A stretch of DNA of 49,015 nt, taken from NCBI GenBank assembly GCA_002067745.1, contig MVRU01000014.1, positions 1-49,015 of the forward strand. The letters are read 5' to 3'. The translations under genes were made by a program, and so were the position numbers. This DNA is from Syntrophus sp. PtaU1.Bin005 (GTDB lineage: Bacteria; Desulfobacterota; Syntrophia; Syntrophales; Syntrophaceae). Shown here piece after piece: positions 33,579 to 49,015 of the stretch. Numbering within the stretch: position 1 is the stretch's first letter; every line of letters begins with the position of its first letter. The notes under the pieces are model-generated. The model did no database searches. It had not been told where the DNA came from and was given only the letters and a program-made list of their open reading frames with translations.

Positions 33579-33739
33579 CACCGAAGCCCGCAGAAGAGGA
33601 TCTTCGCCATAGTTTACCCTTTCAAAACCTTCAGTCCTCCCAGGATGGCAAAGTGGAGCTTATCTACATGATATGCCCTAAATTCTCAACATATTGTGTC
33701 TGTGTTACGGAAGTTTTTCTGATGAGAATGGATCGTTTC

Positions 33740-33769
33740 TTGACAGCCTTTCCTTAACTGTTGTATATC
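33740..33769 (+). promoter_or_regulatory. Sigma70-type promoter opening the surface-sugar locus
   Basis: Consensus TTGACA (33740-33745), 18-base spacer, TATATC (33764-33769). The start of transcription would fall near 33776, leaving about 18 bases before the first ATG with an AGGAGG ribosome site (33783-33788). Confidence 0.55.
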
Positions 33770-33793
33770 ACTGCATTCTACGAGGAGGAACTC

Positions 33794-34135
33794 ATGATTG
33801 TAAGACATCTGAATGACCCGGAAGTGCTTCAAACGACATATCGTGCCCATGGCGGCGGCATCGCCCGGATGATTCTGACCAGCCATTTCATGCAGGGCAT
33901 TGAATTTCTCGCTTATGCCTATTTGCCCAAGGGGAATACGCTGGAAGCACACATCGATCCCGTTGAAGAGATCTACTTCATTCTTCAGGGCGGCGGGTTG
34001 ATGCGTGTAGGCGATGACGAAAAGAGCGTAAAAGCCGGTGACGCCGTCTGGATCCCCGCCGGAGATCTCCACAGCCTGACCAACAACTCGGACGAAGACA
34101 CCGTGGTCCTGGTCGTCGCCGCTTATCCACGTTGA
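33794..34135 (+). CDS. Cupin-domain protein, first gene of the surface-sugar locus
   Basis: A 113-residue single-domain cupin. The core has motif 1 as LEAHIDPVEEIYFILQGGGLMRVGD and motif 2 as AGDAVWIPAGDLHSLTN. Three of the usual metal ligands can be picked out (His in AHI, Glu in EEIY, His in DLHS). A cupin of this size could be a sugar isomerase/epimerase, a small-molecule sensor or a metal-binding accessory protein; the sequence does not decide. AGGAGG six bases upstream of ATG 33794 is strong. Its stop is followed by the DPM-like transferase whose open frame begins in the overlapping TTG at 34132. Confidence 0.8.
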   Translation: MIVRHLNDPEVLQTTYRAHGGGIARMILTSHFMQGIEFLAYAYLPKGNTLEAHIDPVEEIYFILQGGGLMRVGDDEKSVKAGDAVWIPAGDLHSLTNNSDEDTVVLVVAAYPR

Positions 34136-34176
34136 GCCCTGAAGGGATCCGGCCATTGTCCGCCCGGAAACTTCAA

Positions 34177-35115
34177 ATGAAACATCCAGACCGCCCTGAA
34201 ATCAGCGTCGTCATTCCCGCGCACAATGAAGCCGCCAGTATCGGCGACATTGTCAAGCGCTCCTCCATCGTCCTGGAGGCCTGCAAATTATCCCATGAAA
34301 TCATCGTGGTTGACGACGGCTCAGAAGACGATACGGGCGAAAACGCCAGGTCCGTCGGCGCCGAAGTGATCCGCCACCCATATCCCATCGGAAACGGAGC
34401 AGCCGTCAAGACGGGCATCCGCAATACAAGGGGAAACATCCTGGTCATGCTCGACGCGGACGGGCAGCATGCCCCGGAAGACATCCCGCGTCTGCTGGAG
34501 CGGATGAACGCCTACGACATGGCAGTGGGCTCCCGCGATCGCCATTCAGCCACCCCCCTGCACCGGGATTTCGCCAATGCCGTTTACAATAAGTTCGCAT
34601 CCTACGTATGCAAAAGGAAGATTGACGACCTGACCTCAGGATTTCGCGCCATAAAGGCGGTCATCGCCCGTGAATTCGTCTCCCTGCTGCCCAACACCTT
34701 TTCCTACCCGACGACATTGACTCTGGCGGTTGTGCGCTCCGGCTACAGCCTGACTTATGTCCCTATCACCACGGCCCGCCGCATCGGGAAAAGCAAGATC
34801 CGCCTTTTCAGGGATGGAGCCCGATTTCTTCTGATCCTCTTAAAGATCGCCACCCTCTTCTCTCCCATGCGGGTCTTTCTCCCGGTCAGCTTCTTCATGT
34901 TCGCAGCGGGGCTTGGATATGGTCTCTTCAGAATTTTGACTCTGGACGGACGCTATGGCCCCACCTCCGCCATGCTCTTGACCATGTCCGTGGTCGTCTT
35001 CATGGTGGGGCTGGTTTCGGAACAGGTGGCCCAACTCCGGTATGAACGCACGGATCACCGGAGCCCCCAGCGACAACAGCATAATACGGGAAAGGAACAA
35101 ACCCATGAGCCTTGA
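34177..35115 (+). CDS. GT2 glycosyltransferase, DPM1/polyprenyl-phosphate sugar synthase-like, with two C-terminal membrane helices
   Basis: A 312-residue GT-A transferase. It opens EISVVIPAHNEAASIG, with nucleotide-binding VVDDGS (44-49) and the D-x-D-type DADGQH (93-98), then the DPM-family DLTSGFRAIK. Two hydrophobic segments at ~230-255 and ~268-292 anchor the C-terminus, as in polyprenyl-phosphate mannose/glucose synthases. The reaction would be sugar transfer from a nucleotide sugar to undecaprenyl phosphate; the sugar is unknown. ATG 34177 (GGAA nearby) is chosen over TTG 34132, which overlaps the previous stop. Its end overlaps the next cupin start by 11 bases. Confidence 0.88.
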   Translation: MKHPDRPEISVVIPAHNEAASIGDIVKRSSIVLEACKLSHEIIVVDDGSEDDTGENARSVGAEVIRHPYPIGNGAAVKTGIRNTRGNILVMLDADGQHAPEDIPRLLERMNAYDMAVGSRDRHSATPLHRDFANAVYNKFASYVCKRKIDDLTSGFRAIKAVIAREFVSLLPNTFSYPTTLTLAVVRSGYSLTYVPITTARRIGKSKIRLFRDGARFLLILLKIATLFSPMRVFLPVSFFMFAAGLGYGLFRILTLDGRYGPTSAMLLTMSVVVFMVGLVSEQVAQLRYERTDHRSPQRQQHNTGKEQTHEP

Positions 35116-35557
35116 AGAATCCGCCCCTCCCCTTGTCGAAACCATTTCTTCGGGGCTGGAGCCCCTTGCCCTGATCATCCGGGCAGAATATGACGAACCG
35201 GGCATCCGGTTTTTTACGCCTCCCACCTTTTCCCAGCAGGTGGCCTGCATGAAACATCCCCCCGGCCATACAATCGCTCCCCATGTTCACAACTTCCTCT
35301 TTCGACAGGTCATGTACACCCAGGAAGTCCTGATTATCCGGCGCGGCCGGATGAAGGTGAATCTCTTCTCTTCTGAGAGGGAGTTCATTGCCTCCCGGAT
35401 TCTGGAAAGTGGAGATCTCATTCTGCTGTGCGGTGGAGGACATTCCTTTGAAATGCTCGAGGAGACCTCGATGATCGAGGTGAAGCAGGGGCCGTATGCC
35501 GGCGAGGAGGATAAGACACGTTTTGCAACCAGGGAGACGGACAATGATTCCCGTTAA
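35105..35557 (+). CDS. Second cupin-domain protein of the surface-sugar locus
   Basis: A 150-residue cupin with metal-ligand-like His residues in HTIAPHVHNF, a YTQEVLIIRRGRMKV strand pair and a second motif GDLILLCGGGHSFEML. It ends IEVKQGPYAGEEDKTRF. From memory, close relatives with the same GGHxFEMLEE...EVKQGPY phrase are found in O-antigen and capsule loci beside DegT aminotransferases and GT2 enzymes; their biochemical role is not established. The start overlaps the end of the GT2 gene and its stop overlaps the start of the DegT gene by 14 bases, so the three are translated together. The chosen ATG has AGGA eight bases upstream. Confidence 0.82.
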   Translation: MSLEESAPPLVETISSGLEPLALIIRAEYDEPGIRFFTPPTFSQQVACMKHPPGHTIAPHVHNFLFRQVMYTQEVLIIRRGRMKVNLFSSEREFIASRILESGDLILLCGGGHSFEMLEETSMIEVKQGPYAGEEDKTRFATRETDNDSR

Positions 35558-36701
35558 TGAACCTTTGATTGGAGCAAGGGAGGAGGAATACGTTCTGGAA
35601 TGCCTCCGTACGGGGTGGATTTCCTCATCCGGTCGCTTTATTGAGAGGTTTGAAGAGGGATGGGCCACGTATTGCGGACAGAAATTCGGTATTGCCGTGA
35701 GCAACGGAACGACAGCTCTGCAGGTCGCCGTGGGCTGCCTCGGTCTGAAACCGGGGGATCTGGTTATCATACCGACCTTCACCATTATTTCCTGCGCCCT
35801 GGCCGTGATTTACAACGGGGGGATTCCGGTTCTTGCGGATTGTGACCCGAGGACCTGGTGCCTCTCCCCTGAAGGGGTTAAAGAGGCCGTGGAACGGGAA
35901 ACAAAAAAAGGAAACGGCCACAGGCTGAAAGCCATCATGCCCGTTCATATTTACGGTCATCCCGTGGACATGGACCCTCTCGAAGAGTTGGCGGAGGCTT
36001 ATTCCCTGGCGATCATTGAAGACGCCGCCGAGGCCCATGGCACGGAATATTTGAGCGGGCGCATGGGAAGCAGTCCGGCATGGAAGCGGTGCGGTGGACT
36101 GGGCGACCTGGGCGTATTCAGTTTTTATGCAAACAAGGCCATTACAACCGGTGAAGGGGGCATGGTCATCACCAGCAACGCAATCTTCGCCGAAAGGGCG
36201 CGTAATCTGCGCAACCTCTGCTTTCTCCCGGAGCAGCGTTTTCTGCATACTGAAGCCGGCCATAATTTCCGCATGACAAATCTCCAGGCTGCCATCGGGG
36301 TGGCGCAACTGGAACGGATAGAAGCCATCCTGGAGAAGAAAAAGGCCATCGGTAAAGCTTATTGCGAGCACCTGAAAGATATCCCCAGCCTGCAGCTTCC
36401 CGTTGAAGAGCCCTGGGCAAAATCGATCTACTGGATGTTCGGGATCGTACTCCACGAAGATACGGACATGAATGCCTCACAAATGGCACAGCGCTTGCGT
36501 GATAAAGGCATCGATACCCGGCCGTTTTTCCTCGGCATGCACGAGCAGCCCGTTTTTCAGCAGATGGGGCTTTTCGGGAACGAACACTATCCCGTTGCGG
36601 AGCGGCTGGCCCGCAGAGGGCTTTATCTGCCTTCAGGACTGACGCTCACGGAATCCCAGATTGATGAAGTTGCAGAAGCCGTAAAAGAAATCCTGCGTTG
36701 A
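35544..36701 (+). CDS. DegT/DnrJ/EryC1-family sugar aminotransferase
   Basis: A 385-residue PLP enzyme that aminates a nucleotide-bound keto-sugar (perosamine synthetase-like). Features: IPVNEPLIG start, SSGRFIERFE, SNGTTALQVA for PLP phosphate binding, IIEDAAEAHG with Asp160, and the PLP Lys198 in FYANKAITTGEGG. The C-terminal half has RMTNLQAAIGVAQLERI, usual for the family. The amino sugar should go into the polysaccharide built by the following transferases, or possibly serve lipid A modification. ATG 35544 has AGGGAG seven bases upstream and overlaps the cupin gene. No 4,6-dehydratase that would make its substrate is in the window. Confidence 0.92.
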   Translation: MIPVNEPLIGAREEEYVLECLRTGWISSSGRFIERFEEGWATYCGQKFGIAVSNGTTALQVAVGCLGLKPGDLVIIPTFTIISCALAVIYNGGIPVLADCDPRTWCLSPEGVKEAVERETKKGNGHRLKAIMPVHIYGHPVDMDPLEELAEAYSLAIIEDAAEAHGTEYLSGRMGSSPAWKRCGGLGDLGVFSFYANKAITTGEGGMVITSNAIFAERARNLRNLCFLPEQRFLHTEAGHNFRMTNLQAAIGVAQLERIEAILEKKKAIGKAYCEHLKDIPSLQLPVEEPWAKSIYWMFGIVLHEDTDMNASQMAQRLRDKGIDTRPFFLGMHEQPVFQQMGLFGNEHYPVAERLARRGLYLPSGLTLTESQIDEVAEAVKEILR

Positions 36702-36768
36702 AACTCTGCACCAGCGGCAGATAAAAGACGGGGCCTGAAAATTTTATTGTTTTCTTCCACATTTTGCC

Positions 36769-37542
36769 ATGACCAGCTCACCTTTTCAGAAAGACTATGC
36801 GGAAGCGTATGATGCCCTCTATCAGGACAAGGATTATCCGTCCGAGTGCGATCTCGTTGAAGAGATCTTCAGAAAATACGCATCGGGCAAGATCCGGACA
36901 ATTCTCGATCTGGGCTGCGGAACGGGCAATCATGCCATTCCACTGGCCTGCCGGGGATACCAGGTCACCGGGGTCGATCTCGCGGAAGACATGCTCCAGC
37001 AAGCCAGGTTAAAAGCGCAATTTCTGACAACAGGACAACTTGCGTTTCTGCTTCGAGACCTGCGTCAGTTATCGCTCCCTGATCCATTCGACGCGGTCCT
37101 GATGATGTTCGCCGTACTGGGCTATTCAACGACCAATGACGATGTTCTGGCCGCGCTCAATACAGTCAGCCGCCACCTGAAACCAGGCGGCTTATTTATT
37201 TGTGATGTCTGGTACGGCCCCGCTGTTTTGGTGCAGAAGCCCGCGACAAAAGAAAAAACAATACAGACTCCAGAAGGTACCATCATCCGGAATGCATCAG
37301 GGAGTCTGGATATTTTTCACCATCTTTGCACTGTTCATTATTCCCTGCGGTATTTTAGAAATGGTGAAATTTTCAGGGAAGCTGAAGAGAACCACACCAT
37401 GCGCTACTTCTTCCCGCAGGAATTGGCCTTTTTCATGAGACAGGCAGGTTTGGAACAAATCGACATCAGCGACATCAATGATCTATCGCGGCTCCCCAGC
37501 GAGGGTACATGGAATGTTCTTGTGGCGGGCAGAAAAGTATAG
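36769..37542 (+). CDS. SAM-dependent class I methyltransferase
   Basis: A 257-residue methyltransferase with motif I ILDLGCGTGNHAIPLA (45-60), the acidic loop VTGVDLAEDML, and PDPFDAVLMMFAVLGYST. The C-terminal part contains HTMRYFFPQELAFFMRQAGLE, as in small-molecule or sugar methyltransferases. The substrate is unknown; methylation of a sugar residue or glycan end is inferred from location. There is no clear ribosome site before ATG 36769 and a 67-base gap to the DegT gene, so expression may depend on a promoter in that gap. Confidence 0.85.
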   Translation: MTSSPFQKDYAEAYDALYQDKDYPSECDLVEEIFRKYASGKIRTILDLGCGTGNHAIPLACRGYQVTGVDLAEDMLQQARLKAQFLTTGQLAFLLRDLRQLSLPDPFDAVLMMFAVLGYSTTNDDVLAALNTVSRHLKPGGLFICDVWYGPAVLVQKPATKEKTIQTPEGTIIRNASGSLDIFHHLCTVHYSLRYFRNGEIFREAEENHTMRYFFPQELAFFMRQAGLEQIDISDINDLSRLPSEGTWNVLVAGRKV

Positions 37543-37673
37543 AGTCCCACAGAATACTTTCAATCCCTCAATTTCATCACCGCCGGTCATAAATTCGGAC
37601 AAGAAATGCTTAATCAAATGGGTGGCCCTATAAACCTTCCTATCCAAATTCAGAAACCAGCAACGGGGCACTG

Positions 37674-39143
37674 ATGAACGGAGAATCCATCACCACGAAA
37701 ATCGCGCGATCGGTTAAGTGGTCAGCCCTGACAGAAGTCGTATCACGAGTAGCCTCACCGCTTATTTTTGTCATATTGGCGCGCATTCTTACACCGGAAG
37801 ACTTCGGGGTGATGGCAACGGCTATGGTTGTCATCAGCTTTGCTCAAATGTTCTGGGATGCAGGCCTTGGAAAAACTTTAATCCAGATTAATGAAGCCTG
37901 CGAGGACGCCGCTCATGTGGTTTTCTGGACATGTCTTGGAATGTCCATCGTTATCTATTTTATACTTTTCCTAGCGTCTCCGTCACTGGCCGTTTTTTTC
38001 GATAGTCCGGACTCTGTCGCTATTCTGCGAGTCCTTGGTCTTCAAATTATCTTAGCAGCCTTGTCATCCACCCCATACGCCCTTTTTGCCCGTAAGTTCG
38101 ATTTTCATCGACTCTTTTGGATCAAATTGATCACAGCTTTCGTTCCGGGATTCATTTCTATTCCCCTGGCCCTACAGGGCTATGGCATCTGGGCTCTTGT
38201 GATTGGAACCATTTCTGGCCAGGTTTTAAATCTTGCCTTAATGTACCATTTCAGTTCGTGGTATCCCAGGTGGCGATATAATTTTACGCTTGCCAGAAAA
38301 ATGTTTCAGTTTGGCATGTGGGTTTTTGCTGAAAGTTTTGGCGGATGGCTGATTGTTTGGGGGGATAGCCTCATCGTAGGCCACGTCCTTGGCGTTCATG
38401 ATCTTGGCATATATCGAACAGGATGGATGGTCGTGACAATCATTTTTGGAATTGTGTTGAATCCGCTTTTACCCGTCATATATCCTGCTTTCTCGCGTCT
38501 TCAAGACGACTGGTCCAAACTGACGGAAGTGTTCTTCAAAACAAATCGCATCATCATGGCGTTGGCGTTACCGATAGGTTTTGGTCTTTTAGTGACGGGG
38601 CCTTATATAGCCACCTTATTTTTTGGACCGGTATGGAAGGACATCGGAATTACAATACAGATTTTGGGGCTTACCTATGCAGCCAGCTGGATGGTCAGCC
38701 TGAATCATGAGTTGTACCGCGGGATGGGAAAACCTGATGTCAACACAAAACTGATTTTCTTCTTTATCCTTTATTATTTGCCGTCATACTACATAGCCGC
38801 TCAACATGGGCTTACAACCTTTCTGTGTGCGCGTTTGATCGTTTGTGTATCCACAATTCCTATTCATGCTGTTGTCTGTATGCGCGTTTTGAACATTTCC
38901 TTTTTTTACCTATGGACGGAAGGCAAGAAATTGATATTTATTTCAACTCTGATGAGCATCGCTGTTGTTGTCTCAAATTGGTCGATTACCGCTTCATTTC
39001 CCGACATGCCAATCATTATTCAACTTATGATCATGGTATCTGTAGGATTTTTTTCGTATATCGGGTTACTCACAACCCTGGATAAGGTATTTGTTCTACA
39101 AACATCTGCTCTGTTCCACAAAGCTGTTCACATCGAGAAATAA
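37674..39143 (+). CDS. Wzx-type polysaccharide/oligosaccharide flippase
   Basis: A 489-residue membrane protein with about 12-14 hydrophobic segments. It begins TTKIARSVKWSALTEVVSRVASPLIFVILARILTPEDFG-type sequence (spread over residues ~5-45), the hallmark of MOP-superfamily lipopolysaccharide flippases. It would move lipid-linked sugar units across the inner membrane. The gene is distinctly AT-richer than its neighbours: a sampled line (38281-38340) has 22 G/C in 60, against 36 in 60 at 13201-13260. No good ribosome site is seen before ATG 37674. No Wzy polymerase accompanies it in the window. Confidence 0.9.
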   Translation: MNGESITTKIARSVKWSALTEVVSRVASPLIFVILARILTPEDFGVMATAMVVISFAQMFWDAGLGKTLIQINEACEDAAHVVFWTCLGMSIVIYFILFLASPSLAVFFDSPDSVAILRVLGLQIILAALSSTPYALFARKFDFHRLFWIKLITAFVPGFISIPLALQGYGIWALVIGTISGQVLNLALMYHFSSWYPRWRYNFTLARKMFQFGMWVFAESFGGWLIVWGDSLIVGHVLGVHDLGIYRTGWMVVTIIFGIVLNPLLPVIYPAFSRLQDDWSKLTEVFFKTNRIIMALALPIGFGLLVTGPYIATLFFGPVWKDIGITIQILGLTYAASWMVSLNHELYRGMGKPDVNTKLIFFFILYYLPSYYIAAQHGLTTFLCARLIVCVSTIPIHAVVCMRVLNISFFYLWTEGKKLIFISTLMSIAVVVSNWSITASFPDMPIIIQLMIMVSVGFFSYIGLLTTLDKVFVLQTSALFHKAVHIEK

Positions 39144-39286
39144 AAGCTCATACAGGAACAAAGGCTTACGGGTTCTGCCTTGTCATACCATAACGGAATT
39201 TAATGATTTTAATAAAGTTTTGCACGATGCAGCGATTGGAAATCCAGAAACATCATTGAGAAGATCAAATTAGATTCGATATTAAA
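39144..39286. other. AT-rich gap between the flippase and the first GT2 of the block
   Basis: 143 bases of low-GC sequence. A short frame runs across it but shows no domain character. I see no clear promoter or terminator. Confidence 0.35.
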
Positions 39287-40303
39287 ATGCATGTATCCAT
39301 TATCATCCCAACTTACAATCGGGCAGCATACCTAAATGATCTGTTGAAATCATTGATTGATCAAGAGAAGCGGGCTTTTTTTGACTACGAGGCTCTCATT
39401 GTCGATAACGGCTCGACGGATAGCACTCCCAGCGTGTGTGAAAAGCTTATTGCCCAATACGGGGAACAGAATGTTCGTTACATCAACGAACCAGTACCCG
39501 GATTGCTTGCCGCTCGTCACAGGGGAGTTATTGAGTCAGAAGGCGATATTCTTATTTTCATTGATGATGACATTATCCCGGGACAAAATTGGCTCATTTC
39601 AATAGCGGATACATTCCTCGAGCAAAATGTGCATCTGGTTGGAGGTAAAAGTTTGCCTGTTTACGAAGAATCGCCACCTTCATGGCACCAGGCGCTATGG
39701 ACGCAAGTTTCCGAAATTAAAAGCTCTTGCGGTTATCTTAGCCTTCTGGATTATGGGGAGACCTATTGCGAAATAGATCATTCCTTTATTTGGGGACTGA
39801 ACTATGCCGTTCGAAAAAATAGTTTAAAGTTGGCAGGCGGCTTCCACCCCGATGGTTTACCTTGGCACCTCCGTAAATTACGCGGTGACGGTGAGAGCGG
39901 TTTGTCCCATTCTCTTAAATCCCATGGCCTTAAGGCAATCTATCACCCCGCTGCTACCGTTTATCACAGAATTTCCAAAGACCGATTAAGCCTGGATTAC
40001 ATTTCAAAACGTAGTTACTTACAGGGAATATCGGACTCTTATACACAAATACGGTCACAGAATGGTTGTCATGCGCCGGAAGAATCAATGAAATTGCGGA
40101 TATCAAAAAGGATCAACAAATTAACTTCATTATTATCTCTTTTAAAAGATTCGAAAAAAAGGAATTTTTTTAATGTTTTCAGCACAATTAGTCAGGCATA
40201 TCAGGAAGGCTTTTCCTACCATCAACAAGAGGCAATGAAAAGTTCCAGATTAATGGATTGGATTTTAAAAGAAAATTATTGGGACTATCGTCTTCCAGAA
40301 TAA
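39287..40303 (+). CDS. GT2-family glycosyltransferase
   Basis: A 338-residue GT-A transferase: VSIIIPTYNRAAYLNDLL at the start, the nucleotide site IVDNGSTDST and the metal-binding IFIDDDIIPG. The acceptor half contains FIWGLNYAVRKNSLKLAGGF and a conserved-looking RGDGESGLSH. No membrane segment is evident, so it works at the inner face. The AT-rich composition matches the flippase, suggesting they moved together. The stop is directly followed by the next start (TAA then ATG). Confidence 0.9.
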   Translation: MHVSIIIPTYNRAAYLNDLLKSLIDQEKRAFFDYEALIVDNGSTDSTPSVCEKLIAQYGEQNVRYINEPVPGLLAARHRGVIESEGDILIFIDDDIIPGQNWLISIADTFLEQNVHLVGGKSLPVYEESPPSWHQALWTQVSEIKSSCGYLSLLDYGETYCEIDHSFIWGLNYAVRKNSLKLAGGFHPDGLPWHLRKLRGDGESGLSHSLKSHGLKAIYHPAATVYHRISKDRLSLDYISKRSYLQGISDSYTQIRSQNGCHAPEESMKLRISKRINKLTSLLSLLKDSKKRNFFNVFSTISQAYQEGFSYHQQEAMKSSRLMDWILKENYWDYRLPE

Positions 40304-41584
40304 ATGACTAAAAATCAAACCATCGGAATATTTCAGGCTGAATGGCCACTTCAATCACAGACTATTTCCTGCGCAAAAATGCTGGTAAAGGCAGGATTCC
40401 CGGTGGAGTTGTTTCTCTATGATGCAAAGGATCTTGCCGGTTTGCCTTTTCTAGCCAATATACCTGAAATTCGCGTACACAATTTTTCAAGAAGAGAAAC
40501 CCTTTCGCCTGGCAGAAAAAAGTTCATCAAGAAGCTCCCACCGGGAAAACTAAAAAAAATCAAGTGCATTCTTTTAAGAAAATACTTTTATTTCGCCACC
40601 CATTTATATCGATGCAACCCGCTTCCGCTCTATAGGCATTTATTTCCTCTGCCTTCCTGGTTAATTCAATCTTCTGAAAAAATTATCGAATCCAGAAAGT
40701 ATAACTGTTTTATCGGCGTGGAAAAAAAGGGGTTAAGCTGGGCAGGTTGGCATGGCGTAAAATTCAATATTCCCTTTATCTATCACAGCCTGGAACTTTA
40801 CACATACCGACATCCCGATCTTTATGAAATCCCCAAAGGGGTCCGCACAAAGATCGCTGAAGAATATTTTCACAAAAAGAGTGCGGCCACGATCGTACAG
40901 GACCCCGAGCGGGGGCGGATTCTATTGCAGGATAACGGCCTTAAGGAAACGCAGCTTCTATACCTTCCCGTCTCCGTTCTCAACGATACCGACAGAAGCA
41001 GGGATCATGACACCCATCTCCACGAAAAGTTCCATTTACCGAAGAATCAAATTCTGATCATCCAATTCGGTTTGTTTTACGACAGGCGCTATACGGTCGA
41101 ACTTGTGAGAACCGCTCAGAGATTCCCCGAGAACTGGTCTCTCGTACTGCATGGATACGGGCTTTCCGAGGCCTACCTCAACCAGATTCAAGAAGCGAAC
41201 AAGAACAACAGGGTGATTTTGTCTTTGGAACTGGTCCCGCCGGACCAAATCCAAAATGTCATCAATTCCGCCCACATCGGTTTGTCATTTTATGCGCCGT
41301 CAAATGACAATGACCGATTGACGGCTTATGCATCGGAGAAAATGGCCTTATACCAGAAATATGGCCTCCCGTTTATTGCCTTTGATTATTCCGGCTACAG
41401 GAAAGTGGCCGAGCAGTTTAAAAGCGGCGTTGTCATTCAATCCCTCGGCCAGTTGCCGGAAGCCATCGAGGTCCTCCTTTCATCCTATGAAATGTATCGT
41501 GAAAACGCCTTTTCCTGTTTTTCGGAATGTTATGACTATGCAAAAAATTTCAGGAGGGTCATTGATTTTCTCAAGACCTCATAG
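40304..41584 (+). CDS. Divergent GT-B (GT4-like) glycosyltransferase
   Basis: A 426-residue protein. The N-terminal half begins IGIFQAEWPLQSQTISCAKML, a donor/acceptor-domain opening seen in GT-B enzymes. The C-terminal half has the GT4-like order: a strand-start IIQFGLFYDRRYTVELVRTA, a LVLHGYG segment, LVPPDQIQNVINSAHIGLSFY, and ASEKMALYQKYGLPFIA in place of the usual E-x7-E block. The overall match to Glycos_transf_1 is weak, so the class is inferred from pattern and neighbourhood. No ribosome site is seen at its start, which abuts the previous stop. The first half is AT-rich, the second closer to the surrounding composition. Confidence 0.7.
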   Translation: MTKNQTIGIFQAEWPLQSQTISCAKMLVKAGFPVELFLYDAKDLAGLPFLANIPEIRVHNFSRRETLSPGRKKFIKKLPPGKLKKIKCILLRKYFYFATHLYRCNPLPLYRHLFPLPSWLIQSSEKIIESRKYNCFIGVEKKGLSWAGWHGVKFNIPFIYHSLELYTYRHPDLYEIPKGVRTKIAEEYFHKKSAATIVQDPERGRILLQDNGLKETQLLYLPVSVLNDTDRSRDHDTHLHEKFHLPKNQILIIQFGLFYDRRYTVELVRTAQRFPENWSLVLHGYGLSEAYLNQIQEANKNNRVILSLELVPPDQIQNVINSAHIGLSFYAPSNDNDRLTAYASEKMALYQKYGLPFIAFDYSGYRKVAEQFKSGVVIQSLGQLPEAIEVLLSSYEMYRENAFSCFSECYDYAKNFRRVIDFLKTS

Positions 41585-41638
41585 TCTCATGTATTGCCTC
41601 TCTTCCTTCGGCCCCTTTTTGCGCCAGGCGGATCTTCA

Positions 41639-42556
41639 ATGATTTCAGAAGCCGGACTTGTATCTGTCGTCATCCCCGCTTTCAACAGAGCGGAATTTCT
41701 ACGGAAAGCGGTGAAAAGTGTCCTTTCGCAAACCTATCCCGATCTCGAGGTGATTCTTGTTGACGACGGCTCGACGGACGATTCCTTCAAGGTCATGAAG
41801 GAGCTGCAGGCTCATGATCATCGCATCGCATGTTTTCGTCATGGGAAAAACGCCGGGGCACAGGCGGCACGAAACACCGGAATCAGGAACGCCCGGGGGA
41901 AATGGATTGCCTTCCAGGATTCCGATGATGAATGGATGCCAGACAAGATTGAACGACAAGTGGCCGCTTTATCGACGCAGAAATTCGATCCCTGGACGGT
42001 TGTCCATACAAACTGCCTGAAATACGATGGCAATACCGGGATGAAAGAACTCTGGAACCTGCCTGTTGTGGAAGGAAAACACGCGTATGCGGCCATGCTC
42101 AGGAATCCAGGCCCGACGTTTTCATCCCTGTTGACCTCGAAATCCGTCTTGGAAACGATAGGATTTCTCGATGAAAAAACCCCGTCTTATCAAGAGTGGG
42201 ACACCTCCCTGGCACTGGCCCGATACTGCCGTTTTATCCATATCCGGGAGCCCCTCTTCATCTATACACTTCATAACCAGGACCGAATTTCCAGGGATAT
42301 CAGAAGGGACATTGTCGGCTACCAGTTTGTTCTCAAAAAATATGAAAAAGATATCAAGGAACATTGTGGTATAAAGACATGGAACGATCATCTGCTTCAT
42401 CAGTCGTTGAAGTGCATCCGTTTCCGGCATCTTGAATTGTTTGATCTCTGTTCGCAGGATATCAACAGCAGATTTTTGTCGGGGGCGCTGAACCTCATCA
42501 GGCCGTCTGCCTTCACAGCATCTATTCTATTAAAATTGTTACATTTATTAAAATAA
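41639..42556 (+). CDS. GT2-family glycosyltransferase
   Basis: A 305-residue GT-A transferase with VSVVIPAFNRAEFLRKAV, ILVDDGSTDDS and the metal-binding block IAFQDSDDEWMPDKIERQ. This E/D-x-D-DEW pattern is typical of GT2 enzymes in O-antigen loci. ATG 41639 is chosen for the AGGCGG seven bases upstream; the open frame to 41594 adds 15 unlikely residues. It lies 54 bases after the GT-B gene and is followed by a 40-base gap. Confidence 0.9.
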   Translation: MISEAGLVSVVIPAFNRAEFLRKAVKSVLSQTYPDLEVILVDDGSTDDSFKVMKELQAHDHRIACFRHGKNAGAQAARNTGIRNARGKWIAFQDSDDEWMPDKIERQVAALSTQKFDPWTVVHTNCLKYDGNTGMKELWNLPVVEGKHAYAAMLRNPGPTFSSLLTSKSVLETIGFLDEKTPSYQEWDTSLALARYCRFIHIREPLFIYTLHNQDRISRDIRRDIVGYQFVLKKYEKDIKEHCGIKTWNDHLLHQSLKCIRFRHLELFDLCSQDINSRFLSGALNLIRPSAFTASILLKLLHLLK

Positions 42557-42596
42557 CTCCCCATGCGAACAACCATGAAAATGTCATCCGGTACCC

Positions 42597-43781
42597 ATGA
42601 AACATAAAATCGGCCTCTTTCTTGATACAGAGCCTTTCGAAGGCGGCGCATTCCAATATTCGCAGACGATCCTTGAGGCCGTATCGGCTTTACCCCGGGA
42701 TCGATTCGACGTTGTCGCCGCGCTTACCAATGATTCATGGAGTGGTCAGATGAAACGTCACGACCTGAAGGCACTCAAGGTGTCGTTCGGTTTTTGGAAG
42801 CACTTTCCCGGCAAAAGGCTGAGCGGATACCTTCCCATGACCCCCTGGCGTAAATTCGCTCGGAGTTTTCATGCCCCCTCAAAGTTCCTCAATGCACAAC
42901 TGTGCGATCTTTGGATTTTTCCGGCACAGGACATCTTTACCTACCTTCTCCCCCTGCCCGCGCTCGGTTCGATCCACGATCTGATGCACCGATACGAGCC
43001 TCAATTCCCTGAAGTTTCGGCCGGAGGCGAATATGGAAAAAGGGAGCGTCATTACCGGCATCTGTGTGCATGCGCCAAGGGAATTGTCGTTGATTCAGAA
43101 GTCGGCAGGAAACAGGTCCTGGAAAGTTACAGGATCTCCCCGCAGCGTATTCATGTCCTGCCCTATGTGGCCCGCCGCGAGATAAAAAAGGAGGAGGATT
43201 CGCCTCTTTTTGACGACAGGCACCCTCTTCCTGAAAAATTCATCTTTTATCCGGCTCAATTTTGGCAGCATAAAAACCACAGGGTATTAATCCTGGCCCT
43301 GGCGCTTCTGCGGGAAAAAATACCCGATATCCATCTCGTCTTTACCGGTACGGGGAAAAATGGATTCACGTCGCTCGAGAAGCTCATCGGGGATGTGAAG
43401 GTCAGCCGTCACGTCACCTTTTCCGGCTATGTCTCCGATGCCGACATGGCTTGCTTCTATCGAAGGGCACGGGCCATGATGATGCCCACTTTTTTCGGGC
43501 CCACAAACATCCCCCCTCTGGAAGCCATGACAAACGGCTGCCCCACCGCCGTATCCGATATTTATGGAATGCGTGAACAGCTTGGTTCCGCGTCCCTCTA
43601 TTTCAATCCCTCTTCCGCTGAAGAAGTGGCGCAGGTCATGGAAAAGCTCTGGTGCGATGACAAACTTTGTGACGAGCTGTCTCGTCAGGGGCTTTTGCGG
43701 ACCTCTCAATGGAATCAGGGCCATTTTAACCGCATGTTGTCGCAAATCCTTTCCGAGGTTTTGGCTCCCGTAAACTCATGA
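42597..43781 (+). CDS. GT4-family glycosyltransferase
   Basis: A 394-residue GT-B enzyme. The N-terminal part has a glycine-rich acceptor loop, EGGAFQYSQTILEAV, and SIHDLMHRYEPQFPE. The C-terminal donor domain has FIFYPAQFWQHKNHRVLILAL, LVFTGTGKNGF, VTFSGYVSDADMACFYRRA and PTFFGPTNIPPLEAMTNGCP, which contains the conserved Glu of the GT4 E-x7-E region. The opening sequence MKHKIGLFLDTEP has no membrane helix. Its stop overlaps the next start by four bases (ATGA). Confidence 0.9.
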   Translation: MKHKIGLFLDTEPFEGGAFQYSQTILEAVSALPRDRFDVVAALTNDSWSGQMKRHDLKALKVSFGFWKHFPGKRLSGYLPMTPWRKFARSFHAPSKFLNAQLCDLWIFPAQDIFTYLLPLPALGSIHDLMHRYEPQFPEVSAGGEYGKRERHYRHLCACAKGIVVDSEVGRKQVLESYRISPQRIHVLPYVARREIKKEEDSPLFDDRHPLPEKFIFYPAQFWQHKNHRVLILALALLREKIPDIHLVFTGTGKNGFTSLEKLIGDVKVSRHVTFSGYVSDADMACFYRRARAMMMPTFFGPTNIPPLEAMTNGCPTAVSDIYGMREQLGSASLYFNPSSAEEVAQVMEKLWCDDKLCDELSRQGLLRTSQWNQGHFNRMLSQILSEVLAPVNS

Positions 43782-44587
43782 CGATCAACAGCACTCTTCC
43801 ATACTCCAGCAGTGATGAAACCCGGCGCGATACTCCCCTTTTCACGATTCTTACCGCCTCTCTGAACGGAGCAGGGACCCTTGAGGAGACGATTCTCTCG
43901 ATCAGGAAGCAGACCACAAACCAGGTTCAGCACATCGTCATTGACGGCGGATCGACGGACGGAACACTGGATATCTTGAAGAGATACCAGAAAGACTATG
44001 ATCTTTCCTGGATTTCAGAGCCGGACAAAGGAATTGCGGATGCCCTCAACAAGGGGCTGCGTTTGGCGAAGGGAAAATATATTCTGGTCTTGCAGACAGA
44101 CGATCAGCTTTTAAAGAAGGACTCTCTCGAAAAAGCCTGGGCGGCCATAGAAAAAGGTCCGGCTGATTTTCATATTTTCCCCGTCATGTTTGACCGTCAC
44201 CAAAAAGGCAGAACATTGTTAACCCCGGTCCCCTTTTTATGGTGGAACCACTTTAAATTTCTTTTCTGTCATCAGGGCTGTTTTGCAGATCGTCACGTGT
44301 TTGAAAAAATTGGTCTGTTTCGGACGGAATTTCCCATCACCTTCGATTATGACTTTTTTTATCGCGCCTTGAACGTCCATTGCAGCGTAAAATTTGAAGA
44401 CTTTCCCGTGACGGTGATGGGTGCGGAAGGAATCAGCAGCAACCCCGCTTTTCTCTTCCAGCGGCTGGAGGAGGAATTCCAGGTTCAAAAATCCAACGAG
44501 GAAAGACTCTTCTGGGCATTAGCGCAGCGCATCTTTCGCATCCTCTACCTGCCCTACAAGCGGTTTGCTCAAAGCCTCACATCATGA
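43778..44587 (+). CDS. GT2-family glycosyltransferase (WcaA/PGL-type)
   Basis: A 269-residue GT-A enzyme: FTILTASLNGAGTLEETILS, IVIDGGSTDGTLDIL and SEPDKGIADALNKGLRLAKG, the phrase typical of the colanic-acid-type GT2 subgroup, then YILVLQTDDQL as the metal-binding region. FCHQGCFADRHVFEKIG is the usual acceptor-site block. Translation is probably coupled to the previous gene through the ATGA overlap. Confidence 0.9.
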   Translation: MTINSTLPYSSSDETRRDTPLFTILTASLNGAGTLEETILSIRKQTTNQVQHIVIDGGSTDGTLDILKRYQKDYDLSWISEPDKGIADALNKGLRLAKGKYILVLQTDDQLLKKDSLEKAWAAIEKGPADFHIFPVMFDRHQKGRTLLTPVPFLWWNHFKFLFCHQGCFADRHVFEKIGLFRTEFPITFDYDFFYRALNVHCSVKFEDFPVTVMGAEGISSNPAFLFQRLEEEFQVQKSNEERLFWALAQRIFRILYLPYKRFAQSLTS

Positions 44588-44615
44588 TCGGGGAAAAGAC
44601 ACGGAATGTATTTCT

Positions 44616-45656
44616 ATGGGCTTAAAACCTCGACGTGACTCTAAAAAAGGACGAATCATGATGTTAAGCCCCATGCCCACCGGAAACGGCGCCTTTGTCC
44701 TGCATAAAATGCTCGAAGCGGGAATAACGGGTTACCGGGTCTTCCCCTATTCGCCCTACCGGGAATTTTTCCCGGCGTCCCTGCCCTTTTTATTAAAGGG
44801 GCAAAGGCCTCCCCTGATTCACGCCACGGCGGATTACGGGATCTTCTTTCGCCGTCCGGGAGTTCCCCTGGTCCTCACACTCCACGGCTTTTTTCTCGAT
44901 ACCGCGATGATGCGCTACAGTACGCTCCTGCAACGCATCCATTATCAGACCGATCTGCGATGGTTCACTCGCGCTTCCTTAAACGCAGCCTCTTCGGTCA
45001 CCGCTGTCAGTCGGTTCATGGCGGACATTGCCCGGAAGGAGCTGGGATTTAGCCAGAAGATTCAAGTGATCTACAACGGCATCGACACGGCCGAATTTTC
45101 ACCGCCCCTCAAGAAACCAGCCTCTAAAACCCTCCGGGTCCTCTATGCAGGAAATCTCCATCGGCGGAAAGGTGCGTTCCTCCTTCCGGACATCGCACAA
45201 AAACTGAACCCCGGCATCCGCATCGACTATGCCCGTGGTTTGAAATCGAAAAGTTCTCTGCCGCCAGCCCCCAACCTGACGGATCTGGGAAATGTACCCC
45301 TGAGGGAGATGCCTGCGCTCTATCCGCAATACGATCTGCTGCTTTTCCCCTCCGTCAGGGAGGGATTCGGTCTGGTTGTTGCTGAAGCCATGTCCTGCGG
45401 GCTGCCGATTGTGGCGTCCAACACGTCGGCCATCCCCGAACTGGTTGTTGACGGCAGGGGCGGTTTGCTGTGCGAACCTGGAAATGCGAAGGATTTCGCC
45501 GAAAAGATCAATCTCCTTGCCGAAGCTCCGGAATCACGGCGGGAAATGGGCGAATTCAACCGTTCCCGGGTGGAACAATACTTCACCCGGGAACGAATGA
45601 TCTGTGAATATTCCGAACTGTTTAAAAAAATCCTTGATCGCGGTGTTTATGAGTAG
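44616..45656 (+). CDS. GT4-family glycosyltransferase
   Basis: A 346-residue GT-B enzyme. It has MPTGNGAFVLHKMLEAG, LVLTLHGFFLDT, VTAVSRFMADIARKELG, VIYNGIDTAEFSP and the donor-domain blocks RVLYAGNLHRRKGAFLL and FPSVREGFGLVVAEAMSCG, with both Glu of the GT4 E-x7-E motif. Start is uncertain: ATG 44616 gives a short polar leader, ATGs at 44658/44661 would begin at MMLSPMPTG, and a TTG at 44565 overlaps the previous gene. It is the last plus-strand gene of the locus and ends 14 bases before the stop of the convergent GT4 gene. Confidence 0.9.
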   Translation: MGLKPRRDSKKGRIMMLSPMPTGNGAFVLHKMLEAGITGYRVFPYSPYREFFPASLPFLLKGQRPPLIHATADYGIFFRRPGVPLVLTLHGFFLDTAMMRYSTLLQRIHYQTDLRWFTRASLNAASSVTAVSRFMADIARKELGFSQKIQVIYNGIDTAEFSPPLKKPASKTLRVLYAGNLHRRKGAFLLPDIAQKLNPGIRIDYARGLKSKSSLPPAPNLTDLGNVPLREMPALYPQYDLLLFPSVREGFGLVVAEAMSCGLPIVASNTSAIPELVVDGRGGLLCEPGNAKDFAEKINLLAEAPESRREMGEFNRSRVEQYFTRERMICEYSELFKKILDRGVYE

Positions 45657-45670
45657 ATAGTCGAAGGAAT

Positions 45671-46903
45671 TCATCCGGACGGCTTTCCCGTTGCGACCAT
45701 TGTTTCGATCATTCCGCGGTAGCGATCCGAAATCATGTCCCAGTCGTAGCGTTCCCGTACAAAGGCCCGGCCCTTCCGCCCCAGTTCTGCACGGATATCC
45801 GGATGATCCAGCAGAAAGATGACTTTTTCCGCCAGCGCCGACTCATTTCGCTGGGGAACGATGAGCCCGGTCTCTCCATCGGTAATAATATCCCGGAGTG
45901 CCGGAAGATCCGTCGCTACAACGCCGCACTCACACCCCAGCGCCTCCACCTGAACAAGCCCAAAACCTTCCTGGTCTCCATCAGCGGCAACGATCGATGG
46001 AAACACCACAATTTCAGTCCCCTGGTATAGCTCAGGCAGCTGGCGGTTCCCGACGGCACCCAGAAAAATGACCCTCCCGCCAAGGCTGAAACGCTCGGCT
46101 TCATTTTTCAGATCTCGCTGTTCGGGGCCGCTGCCGGCAATCAGGAGACGGCTTTCGGGGTGGGCCTGCAGGATGGCGGGCATGGCGCGAATCAGGTAAA
46201 TCAACCCTTTTTTTTCCACAAGCCGTCCGACGAAAAGAATCTGCCCGGAAATCCGGCACACTGCATTCCGAGGCGGAACGAAGTCTTTCGTCAGATCGAC
46301 GCCCATCGGGATGATATCCGTCAAAAGGTCACGGTTCCCGAGACTCGACACTTCGTTCTTCATTGCCCGGCTGACCACGGTAAGCCCCTGGATCCGGGAT
46401 AGAACAAAGCGTTTCAGCATCCGGAACAGCCCCCCTCTCAGCGCAAACAGATCCCCGCCATGAGAGGTGCACAGAATCGGGCAGCCTGACCTCGAGGCCG
46501 CTCTTGAGAGAATCGCAACAAGACCCTGCGGCAAAAGCCAGTGAGCATGGATTGCCTCATAAGAGTCGGCCCTGAGAAGGCGAATCAGCTTGGCCAGCGC
46601 ACCGAGAAGGAAAAAAGGAACCAGGATGAAACGCCAGGGATGCTGCTTCAGGTTTGGAAGGATCCCCCCCTCATAGGCAAGCTTTTCACGCTCCCCCCAG
46701 AAATAACGGAACCGGAATATCCGGACGCCGTCCATATCTTCAACCTCTTTCGCACCCGGTGCATGCGGCGCAAGAACATGGACGGTAAAATGACGGGCCA
46801 GCCGCCGGGACAGTTCATAAACAAAAGGAGGCTCACGATCTCCCGCCCATCGAGGAAATGTGGAAGTCAAGACCAGGATTTTACGCTTACTGAGGTCCGC
46901 CAT
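45671..46903 (-). CDS. GT4-family glycosyltransferase (minus strand)
   Basis: A 410-residue GT-B enzyme with the complete GT4 pattern: ILVLTSTFPRWAGDREPPFV with the GT4 N-terminal loop, IHAHWLLPQG, TSHGGDLFALR, ITVVSRAMK-like LTVVSRAMKNEV, IIPMGVDL, then ILFVGRLVEKKGLIYLIRA, LLIAGSGPEQ and EGFGLVQVEALGCE with the E-x7-E glutamates. Sequences of this kind transfer sugars in exopolysaccharide or protein-glycan assembly. It lies 31 bases downstream of the TMTC-like gene on the same strand, so they are probably one transcription unit. Confidence 0.93.
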   Translation of the reverse strand: MADLSKRKILVLTSTFPRWAGDREPPFVYELSRRLARHFTVHVLAPHAPGAKEVEDMDGVRIFRFRYFWGEREKLAYEGGILPNLKQHPWRFILVPFFLLGALAKLIRLLRADSYEAIHAHWLLPQGLVAILSRAASRSGCPILCTSHGGDLFALRGGLFRMLKRFVLSRIQGLTVVSRAMKNEVSSLGNRDLLTDIIPMGVDLTKDFVPPRNAVCRISGQILFVGRLVEKKGLIYLIRAMPAILQAHPESRLLIAGSGPEQRDLKNEAERFSLGGRVIFLGAVGNRQLPELYQGTEIVVFPSIVAADGDQEGFGLVQVEALGCECGVVATDLPALRDIITDGETGLIVPQRNESALAEKVIFLLDHPDIRAELGRKGRAFVRERYDWDMISDRYRGMIETMVATGKPSG

Positions 46904-46934
46904 CAGATTGCTGCCTTGGATTGGAAAAACGTCT

Positions 46935-49004
46935 TCACACCATTGGGGATTTTGGTTCCTTTTTACAAAACTTTTCCATTATAGCCAGTATTTTATCCGG
47001 ACTGGGAACATAAATTTGCAGCTCCTGCGTTGGCTGTGTCGATTTCCGCAAAAACATTCCTAATTCCTCCTGTCCCGTTTGTTTCAGCAAACGGGACATC
47101 TCCTGCCGTAAAAGCTGTTCCCGCCCGACATCAACGGACAGTTCAATCAAGGCCATTGTGGCGTTGACATCGGAAGGACATTTCTCCCGGAATGCGGTCC
47201 AGCAACGAATGGCCTCATCGGGTTTCCCGGCCTGGCGGGCACATTCCGCAAGAACCACCAGAGAACGGGGACTTTCCGGACTCAGAGACAGTGCCGTCCG
47301 TGCGGCCTTCTCCGCTTCCCGGAACAAGCCGGATCGCAAGCAGGAAATGCCGGCCAGTTCATTCAATCCGGCATGATGTCTCTTGATCTGCAGGGCATTT
47401 TTCAGATAGGCCGAAGCTGCTTCGTTGTTCCCCTCCTTGAGCATCACGGTCGCAATGCCGGCCATGGCTGCCCCATATGAGGGATAGATCGCCAGGGCTT
47501 GTTCATAGTAGAAAAGGGCACGTTTGTTCTGACCGTCACCGCTGTACATCTGGCCCAGGTTGTAATGAACCAGGGCCTTTTGAAACGTGCTGGCATACCG
47601 GTCTGCTTGAAGAGCCCGATGCAGTTCCTGCAGGGCTTCCTGGCGGAGCCCGCCATCCAGTAAATTCTTGGCAAGATTCACGTGGACGAGACTGAGTTGA
47701 GGGTATTTGATCCCGTTGTCAAGCCATAGAGTCATATCACTCGCCAGCACACTGTTTCTTGCAAAAACGGCTTGTCCCGAAAAGGCGAGAATCCCGGCGA
47801 AACAGGCAATGGACGTGATGCGCAGAACCCTTTGGCGGGATGCGGCCTCCAGCGCCTTTAAAACCAGGAGGGCCGGCAGGATGAAAATAAAAAGGGACGG
47901 GACATAATTCCGATGCTCGAAAATAATTTCCAGTGGAATGAATGAGGCTTCGATGACGTGATTGAGGAAGAAAAAGAGAATGCAGAAGGCAACCAGGGGC
48001 TTTCGCCGCACCAGAAGAATTGCGGCGGCATTTAAAAGCACAACGGCAAGAATCGCAGGCAACGTCGTCCAGGGATCGATCAATGACCGGGAAATCTCAA
48101 CATCATGGAGGAGGGCCAGCCGATCGTTGATGGGATAACACAGCAGGGAGAGGTAAAAAACCAGGACCCGCGGCTCCGTCAGCAGCCGCTCGGCTAAGGT
48201 GAAAGGGCGATTCCTGTATCCATCCATCAGGGTGGAAAAATCCACAAAGAACAAGGACGCGGCCAGCAGAATCAAAAACGGAAAGGCAACAAGAGGAAGA
48301 TTTTTTTTCAAGCTCCGGCGGGTAACACCCTGGATCAGAACCAGGTCATAAAGAAGAAGGCTCGCCGGAAGCATGGCGGCGTTTTCCTTCGCCCCGAAGG
48401 CAAGAAGGGCGAAAACACCGGACAGGACGAAGAAAAGCCCTTTCCTCCGCAAGGACTCTTCGGTTCTGCCAAGCAGATAGAAATACAGGCAAAGCACATA
48501 AAACAACCCGGCCAGAATCGCCATGCGCTGAACGATCATGCTTACGGCGGTCACCTGGACGGGGCTCGCCGCCCACAGGACTGACGCCAGCAGGGCAATA
48601 TCGTAGGATGCTTCGCCGCAGGAGGGCCGCAGCAACGGCAGAGACAGTGTACGTTGAATCAGGAGAAAGAGAAAAAAGGCGGTCAGCCAGTGAACAGCGA
48701 AATTGACGAGGTGATAGCCGAAAACCTCGGTTCCGCCCAGGTAGTAATTCAGGGCAAAGCTGAGATAGGAAATGGGCCGGCTGATATTGCCCCGAAAGTA
48801 AAAGCTCTTCTGAATATCCTGGAGGCTCAGTGAGGAAAGGTGGATGTTCTGATTTGCAACGATGTTGTCAAAATCATCGAAATGCCATTCCCCCTGGAAA
48901 CTGTTTCCATAGATAAGCAGCAGGAAAAGCAGGAGGCTGACAGCAGCGAATGTGCATCGTCTGGAAACGGATAATGTTTCGGCTGTGTCCAAGGAAAGGT
49001 TCAT
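46935..49004 (-). CDS. Multi-pass membrane protein with C-terminal TPR repeats, TMTC/GT-C-like
   Basis: A 689-residue protein. The first ~400 residues hold about ten to eleven membrane helices. After the first helix comes WHFDDFDNIVANQNIH, the acidic-pair loop (DD) seen in GT-C transferases and in TMTC/Pmt-like proteins. Residues ~415-640 are a run of about six TPR repeats (for example ALVHYNLGQMYSGDGQ, RALFYYEQALAIYPSYGAA, EAEKAARTALSLSPESP). The combination GT-C-like membrane domain plus cytosol- or periplasm-facing TPRs resembles eukaryotic TMTC O-mannosyltransferases and many uncharacterised bacterial proteins. Role as a polyprenyl-phosphate-sugar-dependent transferase is inferred. The gene is complete; its ATG lies 12 bases from the window edge. 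Confidence 0.85.
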   Translation of the reverse strand: MNLSLDTAETLSVSRRCTFAAVSLLLFLLLIYGNSFQGEWHFDDFDNIVANQNIHLSSLSLQDIQKSFYFRGNISRPISYLSFALNYYLGGTEVFGYHLVNFAVHWLTAFFLFLLIQRTLSLPLLRPSCGEASYDIALLASVLWAASPVQVTAVSMIVQRMAILAGLFYVLCLYFYLLGRTEESLRRKGLFFVLSGVFALLAFGAKENAAMLPASLLLYDLVLIQGVTRRSLKKNLPLVAFPFLILLAASLFFVDFSTLMDGYRNRPFTLAERLLTEPRVLVFYLSLLCYPINDRLALLHDVEISRSLIDPWTTLPAILAVVLLNAAAILLVRRKPLVAFCILFFFLNHVIEASFIPLEIIFEHRNYVPSLFIFILPALLVLKALEAASRQRVLRITSIACFAGILAFSGQAVFARNSVLASDMTLWLDNGIKYPQLSLVHVNLAKNLLDGGLRQEALQELHRALQADRYASTFQKALVHYNLGQMYSGDGQNKRALFYYEQALAIYPSYGAAMAGIATVMLKEGNNEAASAYLKNALQIKRHHAGLNELAGISCLRSGLFREAEKAARTALSLSPESPRSLVVLAECARQAGKPDEAIRCWTAFREKCPSDVNATMALIELSVDVGREQLLRQEMSRLLKQTGQEELGMFLRKSTQPTQELQIYVPSPDKILAIMEKFCKKEPKSPMV

Positions 49005-49015
49005 CCGGTTCTCAA

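Follow-up and report, generated by a model that had tools for sequence, protein, structure and literature searches.

Pilin-accessory cassettes of Pseudomonas consist of a pilin gene, a terminator hairpin and an accessory gene, and two of them encode the pilin glycosyltransferases TfpO and TfpW (PMC11841053), of which TfpW is the GT-C arabinosyltransferase of the P. aeruginosa group IV pilin. Three-component systems pair a polyprenyl-phosphate sugar synthase with a GT-C glycosyltransferase (PMC11127046). TMTC1-4, O-mannosyltransferases of animals, carry the motifs M1 DD, M2 RP, M3 RxD, M4 KE and M7 ERxxY, followed by tetratricopeptide repeats (TPRs) (PMC7801869). In the Ca. Electrothrix pilA cluster, pilA lies by a 'phospholipid carrier-dependent glycosyltransferase', a predicted glycosyltransferase and TPR proteins; its authors interpreted the TPR proteins as factors of protein interaction and did not suggest that the pilin is glycosylated (PMC10580974). 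Our literature search for pilin glycosylation in Geobacter or Desulfobacterota retrieved no earlier description, this cable-bacterium cluster being the nearest. Here we analysed a stretch of 49,015 nucleotides from Syntrophus sp. PtaU1.Bin005 (hereafter the window), which is one entire contig (MVRU01000014.1; G000:C14) of a 2.9 Mb genome and in which a GT2 and a GT-C glycosyltransferase gene frame a group of glycan genes. We predict from genome comparisons, with a probability of roughly 60%, that this locus encodes a glycosylation system which depends on a lipid carrier and acts mainly on the type IVa pilin next to it. The genes between 34177 and 49004 that were cited in a preliminary description of the window are all present and intact, and the following features are central:

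34177..35115, plus strand: GT2 of the DPM/ArnC/GtrB type, predicted polyprenyl-phosphate sugar synthase with two C-terminal membrane helices (PF00535, E 8.5e-28; relatives in the PDB are DPMS, ArnC and sll0501; 20 orthologues)
46935..49004, minus strand: GT-C glycosyltransferase of 689 aa, membrane domain 1-~430, C-terminal TPR domain ~435-650; predicted pilin glycosyltransferase (predicted fold, structural matches, invariant residues)
48941..49015: 75-bp overlap with the start of contig C67 (exact identity), through which the pilin gene at C67:162-560 (minus strand) projects to ~49102-49500 on the minus strand

The domain scan of the GT-C product returned many TPR matches, no Pfam PMT or DUF1736 match (E 1e-3), and no Wzy_C domain, the mark of TfpO/PglL oligosaccharyltransferases. 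TPR matches dominated a structure search with the full-length protein, and the membrane domain was therefore modelled by itself from a 28-sequence alignment. For the resulting AF2 model (pLDDT 84.5, pTM 0.87) the best 49 matches among solved structures were all GT-C enzymes (Z 10-20.6; next match Z 4.1), including OST, AglB, ArnT, PMT and PglB. With Foldseek alone no match reached E 1e-3, yet the top 12 were GT-C enzymes. D43 and D44 are invariant across the 28 sequences; RP at 76-77, K206 (followed by E in most members) and E363-x-R365-x-Y367 are invariant or nearly so, and R160 alone is retained of the RxD motif. Membership of the GT-C superfamily was judged by a multi-pass membrane domain of GT-C fold and an acidic motif in the first extracytoplasmic loop, and the modelled protein is predicted to have both. 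With TMTC1-4 it shares a GT-C domain with C-terminal TPRs and, for the most part, the DD, RP, KE and ExRxxY-type motifs (PMC7801869), whereas it differs in having no DUF1736 match and only the R of RxD, and in being bacterial and pilin-linked. The likeness to TMTC expressed in its earlier name is one of motifs and fold.

Only 11 bp of the contig remain upstream of the GT-C start, so that the pilin gene is hidden from the window. The last 75 bp of the window have no third match in the genome, and since this end overlap is unique to these two contig ends, C67 very probably continues the window. The join between window and pilin rests on the contig overlap and on synteny in congeners. Across it the pilin gene (prepilin motif PF07963; 81% identity to the pilin of genome G002) would lie ~100 bp upstream of the GT-C gene on the same strand. 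Between the two is a 12-pair terminator hairpin, with a near-identical one at the same spot in G002. The locus thus has a TfpW-type layout, with a GT-C gene beside a pilin gene and a terminator between them. As for TfpW, the GT-C gene is directly downstream of the pilin gene and the predicted donor is a lipid-phosphate sugar, a likeness of gene layout and predicted donor rather than of compared sequences; in contrast to TfpW with its arabinose pathway, the GT-C of the window has a TPR domain and a DPM-type GT2 partner. The Ca. Electrothrix pilA cluster, compared by its description, has the same kinds of genes beside a pilin.

This arrangement is recurrent. An alignment-based scan of genome contigs detected 479 relatives (a single-protein scan found none), and those named belong to Syntrophales and other Desulfobacterota. 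Pilin-like ORFs, assigned by a motif rule and not by curated models, were found within 1 kb of the GT-C gene in 58 of the 79 named loci, and in 39 of 46 when at least 1.5 kb of flank was available on each side. Their density was 0.69 per kb inside 1 kb of the GT-C gene and 0.03-0.04 per kb at 4-9 kb. Only 3 of 20 paralogous TPR/GT-C genes were near a pilin-like ORF (Fisher p 1e-7 against the GT-C loci). The two genes are convergent in some loci and co-directional in others, which indicates that the linkage is more than an operon effect. More distant TPR/GT-C paralogues in L225 and L226 also lie less than 250 bp from pilin-like ORFs, and the pilin association may therefore predate this GT-C subfamily. 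Elsewhere, two or three paralogous TPR/GT-C genes stand in tandem beside a pilin gene (L061:9504-15003, L055:8188-12217), and such genomes may hold several pilin glycosyltransferases. A small lipoprotein-like gene upstream of the pilin gene is conserved in three genomes of one genus (L065:948-1454, L049:5241-5765, L217:13443-14051).

For the GT2 the closest solved structures were dolichol-phosphate mannose synthase of Pyrococcus (5mlz, E 2e-18) and ArnC (9bhc, E 1e-16), with GtrB-like sll0501 (5ekp) also among the nearest. Its orthologues (n=20) have conserved DDGS, DxDGQ, SK and SPMR stretches in common, as well as two hydrophobic helices at the C-terminus. A GT2 domain with DxD, a sequence relation to DPMS/ArnC and C-terminal membrane helices, the latter read off the sequence, would place this protein among the DPM/ArnC/GtrB polyprenyl-phosphate glycosyltransferases, in agreement with the earlier designation as DPM1-like. 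The top NCBIfam match was AglJ, at 115 bits below the cut-off of 325. Together with AglB among the best structural matches of the GT-C this recalls the N-glycosylation by AglJ/AglD/AglB in haloarchaea, from which the locus differs in this sub-threshold score, in acceptor and in context.

In several genomes the GT2 side is flanked by minor-pilin genes. Proteins of ~1200 aa with a prepilin N-terminus adjoin the GT2 together with small pilins (L205:535-4176, L052:5393-9055), and are candidate large minor pilins or tip adhesins. Beside the GT2 in many genomes we also observed a winged-helix-like ORF (~183 aa, 71-89% identity; L206:16403-16954, with its like in ten further loci), which could be a conserved regulator of this locus; it also adjoins a different DPM-like GT2 in G018. 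Upstream of the GT2 in the window, a minus-strand ORF at 33686-34156 is 47-61% conserved in two congeners and may be the shadow of an unrecognised plus-strand feature.

The link between GT2 and GT-C is genuine. Among 155 genomes of the class, many of the compared genomes being fragmented metagenome-assembled genomes, 31 encoded the GT2 and 61 the GT-C; both were present in 24, the GT2 only in 7, the GT-C only in 37 and neither in 87 (odds ratio 8.1, Fisher p 1.8e-6). Relatedness inflates this value, and a genus-level count (p 0.008) lessens the inflation without removing it. Fifteen of the 24 pairs were on one contig within 20 kb and 12 within 12 kb. An evenly drawn sample of 345 genomes of the phylum contained the GT2 in 44, the GT-C in 36 and both in 13 (p 1e-4), and 5 of the 11 co-occurring pairs outside the class were 1-5 kb apart. 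Chance neighbourhood was rejected on a random-placement p of ~1e-19 to 1e-22, a value that ignores shared ancestry, and on the recurrence of the linkage outside the class. A GT2 dedicated to this GT-C was not upheld, as the GT2 is often alone. The suggestion of the preliminary description that the GT2 supplies the GT-C with polyprenyl-phosphate sugar withstood the check named with it, co-occurrence in further genomes, at the level of class, genus and phylum. Overall the description is partly supported: its picture of the two genes as both ends of one pathway was too strong, because each often occurs without the other. A GtrB-like GT2 linked to a GT-C is reminiscent of GtrABC and other three-component systems, but the acceptor here is apparently a pilin and not O-antigen, and no GtrA-type flippase was found among the window genes, to which the scan was limited.

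Two layouts recur among the relatives. The tight one comprises the GT2, often a UDP-GlcNAc 2-epimerase, an AglD-like PF03706 protein, the GT-C and a pilin; in the wide, window-like one the GT2 is at one end, followed by glycan genes, with GT-C and pilin at the other. G077 repeats the frame of the window, including the cupin, DegT and methyltransferase genes, across family lines. The closed genome of congener G003 has kept the GT2 block and the last glycosyltransferase genes, and at the GT-C position encodes a 559-aa PMT-family GT-C (PF02366 and PF13231 above cut-off) between two pilins. The same PMT family adjoins the GT2 in L200, L204, L135 and L145 and the TPR-bearing GT-C in several more loci, and elsewhere in the phylum, in L255, PMT, pilin and GT2 genes are consecutive with gaps of 64 bp and 6 bp; loci were picked by GT-C or GT2 similarity, which biases PMT neighbours to such loci. 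The genome of the window encodes no PMT_2-family GT-C, and the GT2 at 34177-35115 is the sole clearly DPM-like GT2 found in it, which makes the TPR-bearing GT-C the leading partner of the GT2 here. Desulfobacterota might share a modular pilin glycosylation island of a fixed polyprenyl-phosphate sugar synthase and pilin, an interchangeable GT-C (TMTC-like with TPRs, or PMT-like) and a variable glycan cassette. We give this generalization slightly less than even odds; it would cover many members of the phylum, among them syntrophs that are relatives of bacteria with conductive pili.

The genes between GT2 and GT-C are:

35105..35557 (approximate), plus strand: small conserved cupin-like protein (cupin-like by eye; 80-85% identity in two congeners, between GT2 and DegT in both)
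35544..36701, plus strand: DegT/DnrJ sugar aminotransferase (PF01041, E 1.2e-106; closest NCBIfam LegC, under cut-off)
36769..37542, plus strand: class I SAM methyltransferase (PF13649, E 1.6e-22)
37674..39143, plus strand: Wzx-type polysaccharide flippase (PF13440, E 1.9e-80)
39287-40303, 40304-41584, 41594-42556, 42597-43781, 43778-44587 and 44565-45656, plus strand: six GT2/GT4 glycosyltransferases (domain matches; five of six at 75-78% identity in G002)
45671..46903, minus strand: GT4 glycosyltransferase, co-directional with and downstream of the GT-C gene (PF00534, E 1.3e-39; 80% identity in G002, 71% in G003)

This brings the glycosyltransferases between the two framing genes to seven. 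The cupin-like gene, without a Pfam match for its product, had been missed in the preliminary gene list, and the DegT start is more likely at 35544 because the protein then has 385 aa, as in both congeners. Behind the block of GT2, cupin, DegT and methyltransferase genes, both congeners have a Wzm/Wzt-type ABC exporter in place of Wzx. With this exporter in the congeners, the middle genes, or at least part of them, resemble a common type of cluster for surface polysaccharide. The sugar may come from the DegT, methyltransferase and cupin genes, which could equally, given the exporter behind them in both congeners, serve a separate surface glycan. GC content is ~44% at 38001-42000 (Wzx and the first glycosyltransferase genes) and ~55% elsewhere, and Wzx and the first GT2 of the cluster are not conserved in G002 while neighbouring glycosyltransferases are, suggesting a swapped-in cassette. 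Scans of the window for Rfam families and tRNAs were both empty.

In the mechanism we propose, the GT2 would transfer a sugar from a nucleotide sugar to polyprenyl phosphate on the cytoplasmic side, as expected from its family. A flippase would then turn the lipid-linked sugar to the periplasm; relatives carry AglD-like PF03706 (LPG_synthase_TM) proteins at the locus as candidates for this step, and here only Wzx is present. Fold, motifs and gene order suggest that the GT-C would pass the sugar to Ser/Thr of the pilin, before or during assembly. The TPR domain of the GT-C is probably on the periplasmic side and might serve to bind the pilin or some component of the pilus. An amino sugar would probably be the product of the DegT, methyltransferase and cupin genes, and the remaining glycosyltransferases might be responsible for a longer glycan or for a surface polysaccharide of its own. 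Transfer to pilin of a polyprenyl-phosphate sugar made by the GT2 would be the simplest account, and would follow the scheme of three-component systems (PMC11127046) and of TfpW.

Several observations weigh against pilin glycosylation by this pair. GT2 and GT-C are 11.8 kb apart on opposite strands in the window, 7 of the 31 GT2-bearing genomes of the class and 31 of the 44 in the phylum sample lack this GT-C, and the GT-C is without this GT2 in 37 class genomes. Most of the GT2 loci examined across the phylum that have no such GT-C also have no pil neighbours, and seven well-flanked GT-C loci have no pilin inside 1 kb. No flippase dedicated to a polyprenyl-phosphate sugar was found in the window, and we found no glycoproteomic data for the system. 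Moreover, the GT2 could serve O-antigen, since its block precedes an ABC polysaccharide exporter in the congeners. Such an O-antigen side branch, in which GT2 and GT-C decorate the surface polysaccharide of the middle genes as in GtrABC while pil neighbours are incidental, is also suggested by the typical polysaccharide character of those genes, the pairing of exporter and GT2 block, and the well-known three-component O-antigen systems (PMC11127046). We nevertheless regard it as unlikely, as dozens of relatives have the GT-C next to a pilin, many without a large glycan cluster between the genes, the pilin-side position is also taken by a different GT-C family, and L255 has a compact cassette of PMT, pilin and GT2. 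Between protein O-glycosylation and a glycan side branch, both raised in the preliminary description, the pilin linkage of the GT-C favours the former.

The GT-C might instead act as an oligosaccharyltransferase, transferring a whole Und-PP oligosaccharide made by the middle glycosyltransferases and Wzx to the pilin, with TfpO/PglL-like logic on a GT-C scaffold and the GT2 in a separate or branch role. OST/STT3, AglB and PglB are among the best structural matches (Z 16-21), Wzx and seven glycosyltransferases lie between GT2 and GT-C, and a title cited in PMC11841053 names TfpW both as a glycosyltransferase and as an oligosaccharyltransferase. But ArnT and PMT, which are monosaccharide-type GT-Cs, match about equally, tight loci in relatives consist of GT2, epimerase, one glycosyltransferase and an AglD-like protein without Wzx, and no initiating phosphoglycosyltransferase was matched among the window proteins scanned; we hold this role to be improbable, a little more so than the side branch. 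Highly improbable, in our estimation, is a protein non-catalytic on the pilin that assists pilin assembly through its TPR domain. TfpY-type pilin accessories exist (PMC11841053) and a structure search found the TPR part to be similar to PilW/PilF (Z ~21), but TPR matches are generic, the catalytic-type DD, K and ExRxY residues are invariant over 28 sequences, and an independent PMT-family GT-C can occupy the same position. Glycosylation of the neighbouring pilin by a lipid-carrier-dependent system is thus the reading we prefer. Its presentation as not yet described holds only in the sense of a variant, as TfpW is an established case of a GT-C that glycosylates pilin and three-component systems have been described as well.

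Should this reading hold, many syntrophic and sulfate-reducing bacteria would have a glycoprotein as their major pilin. A Syntrophus species has been reported to make conductive pili (PMC6771412), and glycosylation of pilin shields Pseudomonas from pilus phages (PMC11841053). The system would therefore matter for the debates about conductive pili, for contacts between cells in methanogenic consortia and for resistance to phages. It would also extend the TMTC architecture to a bacterial relative in which the genome itself points to the acceptor, so that a TPR-bearing GT-C could be studied with a small defined substrate.

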